From: Veronia nyctiphanis
GTDB taxonomy: Bacteria > Pseudomonadota > Gammaproteobacteria > Enterobacterales > Vibrionaceae
Direction of reading: 5' to 3'
Length of the DNA stretch: 64,000 bases
NCBI RefSeq assembly: GCF_004116385.1
Contig: NZ_PEIB01000012.1
Span: 62,001 to 126,000, forward strand
Positions 47 through 5,122 of this stretch are shown in pieces. The notes under the pieces are model-generated. The model was not told the DNA's origin, ran no database searches, and saw only the letters and a program-made list of their open reading frames with translations. Positions within the stretch are counted from its first letter, which is position 1, and every line of letters begins with the position of its first letter. A program made the position numbers and the translations under genes.

Positions 47-1513
47 TTATTGACCTAGACGGTAGTTAGGCGCTTCTTTGGTGATGGTCACATCATGAGC
101 GTGAGATTCACTCATGCCAGCACCTGTGATACGTACAAACTGCGCTTTGGTACGAAGGTCTTCAATTGTCGCCGAGCCAGTCAGGCCCATACATGAGCGT
201 AAACCGCCCATTTGTTGGTGAACAATCTCTTTCAGACGGCCTTTGTAAGCAACGCGGCCTTCGATACCTTCTGGCACCAACTTGTCAGCAGCGTTATCAC
301 TCTGGAAGTAACGGTCAGAAGAGCCTTTTGACATTGCACCCAGTGAACCCATGCCACGGTATGATTTGTATGCGCGGCCTTGATACAGCTCAACTTCGCC
401 CGGAGATTCTTCCGTACCAGCAAACATTGACCCAACCATCACGCATGATGCGCCAGCAGCAATGGCTTTTGCCATGTCACCTGAGAAGCGAATACCACCA
501 TCAGCAATAACTGGAATATCGTATTCGTTAGCAACTGCAGCTGCATCAGAAATAGCAGTGATTTGCGGGACACCCACGCCAGTAACGATACGGGTTGTAC
601 AAATTGAGCCGGGGCCAATACCGACTTTAACCGCATCAACACCTGCTTCAATCAGCGCACGGGCACCTTCAGCCGTTGCCACGTTACCACCGATGATCTG
701 CAGGTCAGGGAAGGCCTCACGGGTCTCGCGTAGACGTTGCAGAACACCTTCTGAATGACCATGAGATGAATCGACAAGCAGGACATCAACACCTGCTTCA
801 ACCAAGGCTTTTACACGCTCCTCGTTACCTGCACCCGCACCAATCGCAGCACCGACACGCAGACGACCTAGTTCGTCTTTACACGCGTTCGGCTTGCGCT
901 CTGCTTTCTGGAAATCTTTCGCAGTAATCATACCGCTAAGGTGATGGTCAGAATTTACAACAAGGATCTTTTCAACACGGTGCTTTTGCATCAGTTGTTG
1001 TACTTCTGCATGGCTTGCGCCTTCCTGAACCGTTGCCAGACGATCTTTCGACGTCATCACTTCTTCAACTGACTTGTTCAAGTCTGTTTCAAATCGCACG
1101 TCGCGACCGGTAATAATGCCCACCAGCTCGTTCGCTGATGTCACCACAGGGAAACCTGCAAAACCATGCTTTTCAGTCAGTGCCTTTACATCGTGAATTG
1201 TCTGGTCAGGTGTCACTGTAACCGGGTTTGAAACAACGCCCGCTTCGAAAATTTTAACCAGTCGAACTTGTTCAGCCTGTTGCTCGATTGACATGTTTTT
1301 ATGGATAAAGCCAATACCACCCTCTTGCGCCAGTGCGATCGCAAGTCGTGCTTCTGTCACTGTATCCATAGAGGCAGACAGCATCGGAATATTGAGCGTG
1401 ATATTTTTCGTAAGACGAGTGCGTAGCTCGGCAGTGTTCGGCAAAACAGTAGAGTGTGCAGGGACGAGCAGAACGTCGTCAAAGGTCAGAGCTTCTTTAG
1501 CTATACGTAACAT
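47..1513 (-). CDS. guaB: IMP dehydrogenase
   Basis: NAD-dependent oxidation of IMP to XMP, the committed step of GMP synthesis, in the cytoplasm. The 488-residue product equals the usual bacterial length. It is a TIM barrel interrupted by a CBS-domain pair (about residues 93-205, with [14 protein letters not shown]). The catalytic loop [15 protein letters not shown] carries the nucleophilic cysteine near residue 305, followed by the flap around [10 protein letters not shown]. The ATG start gives the canonical [17 protein letters not shown]-terminus. It diverges from xseA; guaA probably follows outside the window. Two PurR boxes overlap its promoter, so purine repression is expected. Confidence 0.98.
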
Positions 1514-1566
1514 CGCAATATCTCACGCCAATAAGTTGTTTGAGGAGTCTAAAATATTGCCGCCGC

Positions 1567-1620
1567 ATTATACTCATGGCGCAAACGTTTGGCTATACAT
1601 TTTTACGAAAACGTTTGGCA
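1567..1620 (-). promoter_or_regulatory. guaB promoter with two PurR boxes
   Basis: Read on the minus strand there is a perfect -10 (TATAAT, 1567-1572). Upstream lie two 16-bp matches to the PurR operator (consensus around GCAAACGTTTGC): 1579-1594 and 1605-1620, both with the AACGTT core and with centres 26 bp apart. The proximal box covers the -35 position, as expected for repression. The match is direct; regulation by PurR is inferred from the motif and from guaB being a known PurR target in enterics. Confidence 0.8.
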
Positions 1621-1679
1621 TAAAAAATTCAGCTAAGTAACATGCATCTATCATACAGCAAATTTCGGTTTTTAGCCTC

Positions 1680-3011
1680 GTGAATACTGACAGTAACAGC
1701 CGCATATATACGGTTTCTCACCTCAATGCAGAAGTGCGCAGAGTCCTGGAAAATGAAATGGGTATTGTGTGGCTGGTTGGTGAAATCTCCAATCTGACCG
1801 TTCCCACTTCAGGTCACTGGTACTTCACTTTGAAGGATAGTCAGGCACAGGTTAAGTGTGCAATGTTTCGAGGGAATAACCGCCGTGTGACATTCAAGCC
1901 CGCCAACGGTAATCAGGTATTGGTGAGAGCCAGACTCTCGCTGTACGAGCCGCGGGGCGACTATCAGCTAATCATTGAAAGCATGCAACCGGAAGGTGAA
2001 GGCCTGCTTAAGCAGATGTTTGAGAAGCTGAAAATGCAACTTTCCGCCGAAGGGCTTTTTGCTTCCAGCCAAAAGCGCACATTACCTGAACAGCCGAAAC
2101 GTGTGGGTATCATTACCTCTAAAACAGGTGCTGCACTACACGATATACTCAACGTGCTTAAGCGGCGCGACCCTTCATTGCCCGTGGTGATTTACCCAAC
2201 ACTCGTTCAAGGTGATGGAGCCGCTATTGAAATTGCGCAGGCCATAGGACGCGCGAATTCCCGTGATGAATGTGATGTACTTATTGTGGGGCGCGGTGGT
2301 GGCTCAATGGAGGACTTATGGTGCTTCAATGAGGAAATCGTCGCCAGAACCATTGCTGCCAGCCAAATACCTATTGTCAGTGCCGTCGGGCACGAAGTGG
2401 ACGTCACCATTGCTGATTTTGTTGCTGATGTCAGAGCGCCTACCCCATCTGCAGCCGCAGAACTGGTCAGCCGTGACACCAGTTTACGGCAACAGCAAAT
2501 CCAACAACGGATTGCCTCCCTCGGTAACCAAATAGAACGTTTTCTGGATGGACAGGCTCGTTCACTCACCAGACTATTCCATGTATTGGCATTGCAAGAC
2601 CCGAAGAAACAAATTGAACGCCAGCAGCAACAGATTGATGCGCTGTCACTGAGAATGAACATTGCCATGCAATCGAAAGTACAACGCGTTAGCCAGACAC
2701 TGGATAATCTCCAGCAGCAATTGCAACGCCACTCTCCGATTCACGGCATACAGAGACAACAGCGAGAGCTGATTTTCTTTCAGCAGCGTCTGAAAGATGC
2801 GATGGAAAAGAACCTCACGGCCCACCGCCATGCAATCCAGCTGAAAATGGAAACCTTGGATGCTGTGAGCCCACTGGCAACGCTGACCAGAGGTTTCTCT
2901 GTTACACAATCAGAAAACAGCAAAGTCATTCGTTCAGTCTCAGAGGTATCGGAAGGACAAACCGTGGTTTCTGTCTTGCCAGATGGAAAATTCAAATCCA
3001 AAGTGCTGTAA
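1680..3011 (+). CDS. xseA: Exodeoxyribonuclease VII large subunit
   Basis: Large subunit of exonuclease VII, which degrades single-stranded DNA from both ends together with XseB. The 443-residue product has an N-terminal OB-fold (about residues 8-100, with GEISNLTVPTSGHWYFTLKD) and the catalytic region with GRGGGSMEDLWCFNEE and APTPSAAAELV. A glutamine-rich coiled-coil tail (about 270-400) is typical of the family. Translation appears to start at GTG 1680; I see no strong Shine-Dalgarno, and no better start gives the conserved N-terminus. It diverges from guaB. Confidence 0.96.
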   Translation: MNTDSNSRIYTVSHLNAEVRRVLENEMGIVWLVGEISNLTVPTSGHWYFTLKDSQAQVKCAMFRGNNRRVTFKPANGNQVLVRARLSLYEPRGDYQLIIESMQPEGEGLLKQMFEKLKMQLSAEGLFASSQKRTLPEQPKRVGIITSKTGAALHDILNVLKRRDPSLPVVIYPTLVQGDGAAIEIAQAIGRANSRDECDVLIVGRGGGSMEDLWCFNEEIVARTIAASQIPIVSAVGHEVDVTIADFVADVRAPTPSAAAELVSRDTSLRQQQIQQRIASLGNQIERFLDGQARSLTRLFHVLALQDPKKQIERQQQQIDALSLRMNIAMQSKVQRVSQTLDNLQQQLQRHSPIHGIQRQQRELIFFQQRLKDAMEKNLTAHRHAIQLKMETLDAVSPLATLTRGFSVTQSENSKVIRSVSEVSEGQTVVSVLPDGKFKSKVL

Positions 3012-3055
3012 CTTTACCAGGCGCTGACGCAGTGTTTCAAAGTATTTCTTTTTCT

Positions 3056-3436
3056 GATTTCACCAATACTGCCATTCCATAGTCCGCTTAACGTTATCAA
3101 CTGACACGGTTGATAACGTTCTTATCTATCCAGTCTTCAGCAGGAAAAAATGTGACAAGCATTAATAGGATCATCGATGGATCGTGCGATCCGAGCTGTT
3201 ATTGGCTAATGATCAGCGATCTACCCTAAAAAGAATATTTATCAATACATATCCCGAAAGCATAAGTTACATATTCTGCATTTGGATTTTTAAAAGGATT
3301 AAAATCTATTTATTACAACTTAAAATAATAATGGAAGATTTTTGTAAATTGAAATGACACTTAGTGTGCGGAAAATTTCAACAACTTACGGAGTCTGATA
3401 ATCGACATAAAACCAGATCTTTCGATTTCACCAATA
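3056..3436. repeat. 13-bp direct repeat flanking the spacer core
   Basis: The 13-mer gatttcaccaata occurs at 3056-3068 and again, same orientation, at 3424-3436. The two copies bracket most of the xseA-der spacer. Exact 13-bp matches within 550 bp are unlikely by chance. Function unknown. Confidence 0.7.
3090..3120. repeat. Perfect 12-bp inverted repeat
   Basis: aacgttatcaac (3090-3101) and gttgataacgtt (3109-3120) are perfect complements around a 7-base loop. It is about 80 bp past the xseA stop but is followed by cttatctatc rather than a T-run, so it is a poor intrinsic terminator. A protein-binding site or weak terminator are both possible. Confidence 0.75.
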
Positions 3437-3479
3437 GAGTGACCTTCATCACTTAAATCTGGTTTTCTGACTTGTCGAT
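3401..3479. repeat. Nested inverted repeat
   Basis: Outer arms atcgac (3401-3406) and gtcgat (3474-3479) enclose inner arms aaaaccagat (3409-3418) and atctggtttt (3457-3466). The inner pair is a perfect 10-bp match with a 38-base interior. No coding explanation was found. It lies in the candidate crtS spacer, upstream of the der terminator. Confidence 0.65.
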
Positions 3480-3521
3480 CATCAAAAAACTGTTCTAAAA
3501 AGATGTTTGCGCGAGATAAAA

Positions 3522-3549
3522 ACAAAAAACCCGGCGTTAAGAGCCGGGT
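3522..3549 (-). terminator. der operon terminator
   Basis: On the minus strand acccggc (3543-3549) pairs with gccgggt (3529-3535) around a 7-base loop and is followed by a run of six T. It lies 14 bp past the der stop codon, so it should end the pilW-to-der transcript. Confidence 0.85.
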
Positions 3550-3562
3550 CTGAGATGCTGAA

Positions 3563-5056
3563 TTATTTTTTTCGGTTCTTGACCATGTCCATCATACGCT
3601 TGCGCTGACGGGTCTGAGATACCGTTAATTTCTCTTTCTTATTCTCAAACGGGTTATCACTGCTCTGGAACTGGATACGAATCGGCGTACCTATGATTTC
3701 CAGAGATTTCCGGAAGTAGTTCATCAGATAGCGCTTGTAAGAGTCAGGTAGCTCTTTCACCATATTGCCATGAACAACCACGATGGGTGGGTTGTATCCA
3801 CCCGCGTGAGCATATTTGAGCTTCACACGCCGCCCACGAATCATTGGAGGCTGATGGTCATCCTGCGCCATTTTCATGATGCGTGTAAGCATTGACGTAC
3901 CGACACGCTGAGTAGCAGATTTGTAGGCTTCCTGAATAGACTCAAACAGGTGACCAACACCAGTACCGTGCAGCGCCGAAATGAAGTGAATACGGGCAAA
4001 GTCAACGAAACCAAGACGACGGTCGAGTTCAGACTTCACACGATCTTTCACTTCGCTGTCTAGACCATCCCACTTGTTAACCACAATGACAATCGAACGA
4101 CCCGCATTGAGCGCAAAGCCAAGAAGGCTCAAGTCTTGGTCCGAGATGTTCTCTCGGGCATCAATGACCAAAAGCACGACGTTAGAGTCTTCAATGGCTT
4201 TCAGAGTCTGGATGACAGAGAACTTTTCGACTTTATCACTGACACGTTTACGACGACGTACACCCGCTGTATCAATGATCACATACTCACGGCCATCACG
4301 CTCCATAGGGATATAGATAGAGTCACGTGTGGTACCCGGCATATCGTAAACTACAACACGGTCTTCACCGAGAATACGGTTTGTTAACGTAGACTTACCG
4401 ACATTTGGACGACCGATGATACCGAACTTAATAGGTTGGTTCTGCAAACGAAGTAATGCATCTTCAGCCTGCTCTTCCGTCAGTGCCTCTTCATCAATAT
4501 CCACATCGTGCTCTGAAGTAAGATCAATCAGGCCTTCTTCATCACTGTCGTCTTCTGCCATTTCATCGGCAATAGGCTTCAATGCACGATCAATAAGTGC
4601 AGCAACACCACGGCCATGAGCCGCAGCAATCTGGAACATGTTGTCCATACCCAGTTGCCAGAATTCCGCACTGGCCGCATCAGGGTCGATACCGTCAACT
4701 TTGTTAACAACCAAGAATGTGGTCTTTTCGCGCGAGCGAAGGTGCTGTGCAATCGCTTCATCAGAAACGGTCAAACCCGAACGCCCATCAACCATAAACA
4801 GGACAACATCAGCCTCTTCAATCGCAGCCAGCGATTGTTCAGCCATCTTGGTTTCGACACCTTCTTCGGTACCATCAATACCGCCGGTGTCGATAACGAT
4901 AAATTCGTGCTCACCCTGTTGGGCTTTTCCGTATTTACGATCCCTTGTTAATCCCGGAAAATCGGCGACCAACGCATCACGGGTACGTGTCAGTCGGTTG
5001 AAGAGTGTCGATTTCCCAACATTCGGACGCCCTACCAGGGCAACTACAGGAATCAT
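3563..5056 (-). CDS. der: Ribosome-assembly GTPase Der (EngA)
   Basis: Double-Era-domain GTPase needed for 50S subunit maturation. In the 497-residue product, two G domains are visible, each with GRPNVGKS (residues 8-15 and about 215-222), the G3 motifs DTGG and DTAG, and the G4 motifs NKVD and NKWD. They are joined by an acidic linker ([15 protein letters not shown] and following). The C-terminal KH-like domain ends in a basic tail (MVKNRKK). It is last in the pilW-rodZ-ispG-hisS-yfgM-bamB-der run and 90 bp downstream of bamB, the usual partner. Confidence 0.98.
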
Positions 5057-5093
5057 AATGACCTCTAAATTCTTAACTACTTATGAATAACAT

Positions 5094-5122
5094 CGGCTCC
5101 TGACCACTACAGCCAGGAGCCG
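5094..5122 (-). other. bamB-der intercistronic hairpin
   Basis: Perfect 9-bp stem (cggctcctg / caggagccg) with an 11-base loop in the 90-bp gap between bamB and der. On the minus strand the following bases (atgttattcataag) are not a proper U-tract, so partial termination or an RNA-stability element is more likely than a full stop. Confidence 0.5.

Follow-up and report, generated by a model that had tools for sequence, protein, structure and literature searches.

The spacer between xseA and der almost certainly carries crtS, the chromosome 2 replication triggering site of the Vibrionaceae, and sequence comparison would place it on the primary chromosome of a two-chromosome bacterium. The site is known in kind; the part worth following is a cluster of Dam sites on its xseA side and the loss of that cluster in reduced genomes. 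The window, as the term is used below, is the whole stretch of 64,000 nucleotides that was analyzed, and positions are counted from its first base. Published work is cited from excerpts of the papers. The features concerned are:

47 to 1513, reverse strand: guaB (IMP dehydrogenase)
1680 to 3011, forward strand: xseA, identified by family search, ending at the last base before the spacer
3090 to 3120, forward strand: terminator-like hairpin downstream of xseA, outside the core
3169 to 3221, no strand: Dam-site cluster, with GATC at 3169, 3180, 3188, 3211 and 3218, five of the seven in the spacer
3210 to 3308, no strand: conserved core of the putative crtS, 99 bp, from the alignment of blastn loci and the core profile
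3210 to 3221, forward strand: TGATCAGCGATC box with two GATC, lost in three reduced genomes
3254 to 3272, forward strand: the 19-mer CCGAAAGCATAAGTTACAT, without a change in any of the 30 blastn loci aligned (the best-scoring of 327)
3309 to 3361, no strand: AT-rich der-side flank (81% AT in the window), probably the published 5' Lrp region
3527 to 3551, reverse strand: terminator-like hairpin with a T tail, downstream of der
3563 to 5056, reverse strand: der, identified by family search, its 3' end at the first base after the spacer

The spacer occupies exactly 3012-3562 (551 bp) between the 3' ends of the converging xseA (forward) and der (reverse) genes. It had been described as gene-free in the first-pass annotation, and this agrees with what we found, as seven ORFs of at least 25 amino acids touch it and the longest has 57. 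The same annotation had named the spacer a candidate crtS, a reading that is now supported by an alignable block common to the xseA-der spacers of the Vibrionaceae, including that of a V. cholerae-type genome. A blastn search with positions 3180-3500 matched 327 of 329 genomes of the family, its own included, and 313 of the 315 of good quality. Outside the genus, most of the matches listed start at window position 3210 and stop between approximately 3289 and 3318, and the only other sampled genome of the genus matches over 3187-3388. In the 30 blastn loci that were aligned, which are the best-scoring of the 327 and therefore lean towards the sequence of the window, the 99 bp core was free of gaps and xseA or der lay beside the block in every case.

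We also scanned named genomes for exact copies of the 19-mer, which occurs once in the window and not at all on the opposite strand. The scan gave at least 118 stretches, 80 of which are listed (L087-L166). Either xseA or der was detected in 76 of these 80 loci with order and orientation constant, and neither was found by tblastn in the remaining four (L091, L113, L116, L161). An ORF at the start of L091 resembles, in our own reading, the end of XseA. The 80 loci were chosen by the exact 19-mer, which is thus invariant among them by construction; an independent test comes from the 30 blastn loci. In one family genome (G210) the inner 13 bases of the 19-mer are missing, but the core profile still gives 81.0 bits. 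All of the 80 titles were Vibrionaceae except that of a Flavobacteriales MAG contig (L131). This was considered as a crtS from beyond the family, but it carries an xseA and a der that match those of the window at 61% and 88%, and it is read as Vibrionaceae contamination.

The core profile separated the family from the rest of the order. Over 394 genomes, in a run whose stricter filters lose weak matches, 34 genomes of the family scored 75.8-94.2 bits and the other 360 at most 20.2 bits, 68 of these 360 having weak matches (E value up to 0.1). The genome of the window gave 94.1 bits and no other match at E <= 0.1, consistent with a single copy. The core was absent (at most 13.3 bits) from three genomes of other families whose distant RctB homologues pass the Pfam cut-off (G340, G383, G486). 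Two blastn matches each in G005, G040 and G043 were considered as second crtS copies and rejected, the second profile matches reaching at most 20.9 bits. A suspected transposon in the crtS of G305 is read as an assembly gap, with two contigs ending inside crtS in a short overlap. A phage-borne crtS was likewise rejected, as neither exact 19-mers in viral contigs nor blastn matches in phages were found. Among plasmid records, only that of Vibrio alginolyticus pL29 matched crtS (L208, NZ_CP017910.1, 20467-20539; 73 bp, 86%). Its zinc-ribbon, PQQ-repeat and YfgM genes resemble those of the chromosomal neighborhood, so it is possibly a chromosomal piece filed as a plasmid. A literature search for strings of the core returned no related paper in the text that was accessible.

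The first-pass annotation had suggested looking for rctB on a second replicon, and the gene was found in the same genome on another contig (C52) together with an iteron array and a ParA gene. The 658 amino acid protein matches the RctB family (PF11826, E value 5e-182) and the solved RctB chains (E values 2e-172 to 1e-54). Six TGATCA iterons at steps of exactly 23 bp lie upstream of rctB, and near it are the ParA gene and then a gene without a Pfam match that we read as parB. In all 14 family genomes of at most eight contigs that were common to both searches, the block and RctB were on different contigs. Since the genome of the window is a draft of 127 contigs, two separate replicons are predicted for it, and the contig of the window probably belongs to the primary chromosome.

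Block and initiator also disappear together. The two smallest genomes of the family, G112 and G125 (1.0 and 1.1 Mb), have no block (profile 12.1 and 13.8 bits), and neither a protein nor a family search found RctB in them. Both keep xseA and der, and the der-xseA spacer has collapsed to 54 and 110 bp. They are probably Candidatus Photodesmus katoptron and blepharus (excerpts of PMC5649133). In G257 the block was present and RctB was not found; that genome is 65% complete, and for this reason nothing is drawn from the missing gene. RctB-like initiators were also seen in 51 plasmid records, 39 of them below 60% identity, including Plesiomonas and Oceanisphaera. Across the genomes searched, presence of the block tracked that of full-length RctB, and the crtS checkpoint would extend to a genus with two sampled species.

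The V. cholerae comparison was made through G312, a genome of 4.1 Mb in two contigs, and its link to the N16961 sequence is indirect, none of the 80 named loci listed being from V. cholerae. The C-terminal domain of RctB in G312 is 100% identical over 183 residues to the solved chain 8rv3, which we take to come from V. cholerae; the next best match to this chain was 98% (20 of the 329 family genomes searched). The block of G312 is identical to the core of the window at 76 of 99 positions, and the best other 99-mer of the 64 kb window on either strand reaches 46. It lies inside the xseA-der interval between a 77 amino acid zinc-ribbon-like ORF and a 305 amino acid AlaX-like ORF, both names being our own reading. 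The gene context that the first-pass annotation had given for crtS, beside xseA and near der, was right, with the refinement that in this V. cholerae-type genome two extra ORFs flank the site. In V. cholerae, guaB is presumably VC0767 and der VC0763; by this numbering the N16961 coordinates run from der to xseA, so that the 5' end of the published crtS should be on the der side. The published site likewise lies between two genes, VC0764 and VC0765 (excerpts of PMC11711613), and is a 153 bp element, positions 817947-818099 of Chr1 of N16961, with an active part of 70 bp at 818000-818069 (excerpts of PMC3937223 and PMC6139311).

In 104 of 109 sequences the 53 bp on the der side exceeded the opposite flank in AT content (73% versus 59%; 81% versus 57% in the window), which fits the published description of the 5' region as AT-rich and weakly conserved. 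From this excess, and from a block length equal to the published central 70 bp plus the 3' 30 bp, we infer the sub-parts: 3239-3308 would be the published minimal 70 bp active part, 3210-3238 the conserved but dispensable 3' 30 bp, and 3309-3361 the predicted Lrp-binding side. Immediately left of the 19-mer, positions 3243-3253 exist mostly in two versions among the aligned rows: TTTATCAATACA in the window and in many Photobacterium, Enterovibrio and Salinivibrio rows, and TTTATATAACCACA/TTTATATCACCACA in many Vibrio rows and one Aliivibrio MAG.

The spacer had further been described as packed with Dam sites and symmetric motifs. Its richness in Dam sites is real, with seven GATC in 551 bp, whereas 1000 dinucleotide shuffles averaged 2.5 and 0.8% of them had at least seven; 1.0% of the 551 bp stretches of the window also reach seven. 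The claim of symmetry stood for long inverted repeats and failed for short perfect palindromes. Nine-base inverted-repeat seeds numbered six versus 0.27 expected, and none of 500 shuffles reached six. Perfect palindromes of 6, 8 and 10 bp occurred 9, 3 and 0 times versus 10.3, 2.9 and 0.8 expected. The conserved core is only 99 of the 551 bp, short palindromes do not mark it, and the longer inverted repeats (3090-3120 and 3396-3484) both lie outside it. The second of these is imperfect and beyond 3187-3388, the part matching the sister genome. As a dispersed repeat it was rejected, 3385-3500 having no second good copy in its own genome (best other E value 0.04). An exact 13-base direct repeat, GATTTCACCAATA, is found near both spacer ends at 3056-3068 and 3424-3436.

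What is conserved among the GATC sites is their position. We considered 119 loci (30 from blastn, the 80 listed from named genomes and 9 from the profile) and kept 109 or 108, dropping rows with an identical core, no 19-mer or too little flank. In 109 distinct sequences, with positions numbered from the first base of TGATCAGCGATC, GATC occurred at -21 in 99, +1 in 95, +8 in 94, -32 in 47 and -40 in 42, and at least four sites fell within -60 to +12 in 96 of 108. The 60 bp left of the core held 2.43 GATC per sequence; dinucleotide shuffling gave 0.52, and none of 200 runs more than 0.66. In the bin from -40 to -21 GATC reached 2.07 per sequence and seven other tetramers of equal composition at most 0.12; these seven stayed at or below 0.22 in the other bins outside the core. 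GATC was also raised, less sharply, at +120 to +159 (0.34 and 0.59 per 20 bp). Because the rows are related by descent, they were thinned to 50 below 60% identity, which gave the same picture: 2.16 GATC per sequence in the 60 bp left of the core, GATC at -22 to -20 in 43 of 50 and at least four sites in 42 of 50. Since the published crtS would end near the TGATCAGCGATC box, the upstream sites are probably outside it. No earlier report of a phased GATC cluster was found in the part of the crtS and SeqA literature that was covered, and novelty is unproven.

Three reduced genomes (G016, G021 and G036) lack both the cluster and the box and keep the core, rctB (split in G036) and GATC-bearing iterons at ori2. 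G016 has the same core as Candidatus Enterovibrio luxaltus (L165). Other loci depart from the pattern as well, the contaminant L131 at the box and at -21, L101 at +1 and at -21, and both L047 and L137 at -21, so that its loss is not confined to reduced genomes. Loss of Dam or SeqA does not account for loss of the box, as seven of seven genomes tested had a Dam match over the cut-off and seven of seven a SeqA match (in a short frame in G036, split in G112). One of the three, G036 (contigs of 1,426,504 and 1,161,949 bp), is probably Paraphotobacterium marinum, in which crtS was reported as not found (excerpts of PMC5649133). Its core is at C1:1002044-1002123 (L274/L245), just downstream of der, with 56.1 bits and the 19-mer intact; xseA was not detected in the stretch around it. 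The presence of the core in G036 would correct the published absence. Its rctB (L212, 1805-3768, on C2) breaks at a T-rich stretch into two frames that overlap, through either decay or an error of sequencing.

According to Kemter et al. (excerpts of PMC5854411), what causes the delay between crtS and ori2 is still to be discovered. We tentatively propose, as an idea that may well prove wrong, that crtS is a two-part element, an RctB/Lrp core with a helically phased cluster of Dam sites on the xseA side (at approximately -40, -32/-29, -21, +1 and +8 from the TGATCAGCGATC box), in which hemimethylation delays triggering or limits it to once per cycle. Hemimethylation after fork passage would be read by SeqA or by methylation-sensitive binding of RctB, and the resulting delay or limit would set the lag between crtS duplication and the firing of ori2. 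If so, the three reduced genomes without a cluster, which have a core, rctB, dam and a SeqA match (short in one), should have a short or absent lag. The cluster would also be a candidate reason for the lag, and for why, as Ciaccia et al. noted, the dispensable 3' part is conserved. Published data indicate that it is not needed to trigger: in replication-blocked V. cholerae licensing occurred without hemimethylation (PMC5991422), RctB L651P still bound crtS without Dam (PMC11711613), de Lemos Martins et al. 2018 call binding methylation-independent in their title, and a 3' truncation left crtS function unharmed (PMC6139311), all four in the excerpts available. It may still have a part in the delay or in limiting triggering to once per cycle.

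It is also conceivable, and in our view unlikely, that the cluster is an iteron-like pair of RctB sites beside crtS with methylation-dependent binding, rather than a SeqA or hemimethylation module. TGATCA, the iteron palindrome (excerpts of PMC11711613), opens the box in 84 of 108 sequences, and the spacing from the -21/-22 GATC to that at +1 is 22-23 bp, the period of the ori2 iterons, whose steps in six-site arrays are 22-23 bp (with one 24 bp step in G021) and 23 bp throughout in the genome of the window. However, the -21 GATC does not usually sit within a TGATCA, and the CAGC of the box, present in 105 of 108 sequences, is better conserved than the GATCs. The Dam-free binding of crtS by RctB L651P also counts against this pairing, and published work, as far as the excerpts go, describes crtS as having no similarity to iterons.

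For the site as a whole, RctB binding, licensing, separate replicons and a role for each sub-region are predicted from sequence. By homology with V. cholerae, RctB, the initiator of chromosome 2, would bind 3239-3308, with Lrp helping on the AT-rich der side. Duplication of crtS by the replication fork would produce RctB-crtS complexes that loosen the bridge formed by RctB at the inhibitory 29/39-mers of ori2, so that the iterons become accessible and ori2 fires once per crtS duplication. This follows the published model, in which duplication of the site lets crtS-bound RctB break up the 29/39-mer bridging at ori2 (PMC11711613) and a doubled dosage of crtS suffices (PMC5991422), both from excerpts. 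In a copy-number assay the ori2 of Photobacterium profundum did not respond to three foreign crtS sites (excerpts of PMC5854411), and homology therefore does not guarantee function in every genus.

A conserved promoter or RNA leader of a neighboring gene, unrelated to replication, is a highly improbable explanation of the block. A sigma-70-like promoter has been described inside V. cholerae crtS (excerpts of PMC3937223 and PMC6139311), and promoter-like matches, some of them in the spacer, numbered 4 in 2900-3700 versus 2.1 expected. However, mutation of that promoter had no significant effect on the enhancer in V. cholerae (excerpts of PMC3937223), Rfam gave no match up to E = 1 over window positions 1500-5100, the block lies between converging genes, and it follows RctB, not the xseA and der genes that G112 and G125 retain. 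That the site is a decayed, functionless remnant of crtS is scarcely credible: degraded versions exist in reduced genomes, but the window gave no support for one, its core ranking second of the 34 family genomes in profile score and its RctB being intact.

The site read here as crtS shares with that of V. cholerae the common core, the xseA-der interval, a single copy, an RctB in the genome and an AT-rich flank on what is probably the 5' side. It differs from the V. cholerae-type G312 in that both crtS-flanking ORFs are absent from the spacer, and left of the 19-mer the window has TTTATCAATACA where the V. cholerae-type block has TTTATATAACCACC. The likeness to the RctB iterons of ori2 consists of the TGATCA at 3210 and of two GATC separated by 23 bp, as the iterons of its own genome are. 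In contrast to an RctB iteron array, with several TGATCA 22-23 bp apart, the spacer holds only the one. Of TTACGG, the conserved motif of the RctB 29/39-mers, the spacer has a single copy, at 3386; it was considered as a 39-mer and rejected, as it is not kept in the sister genome (L023). Beyond the Vibrionaceae, the site resembles DARS2, the DnaA reactivation site of E. coli, in being a non-origin chromosomal site that would remodel an initiator with a second DNA-binding protein (excerpts of PMC6139311); unlike DARS2, crtS acts not on DnaA but on RctB, the initiator of another replicon.
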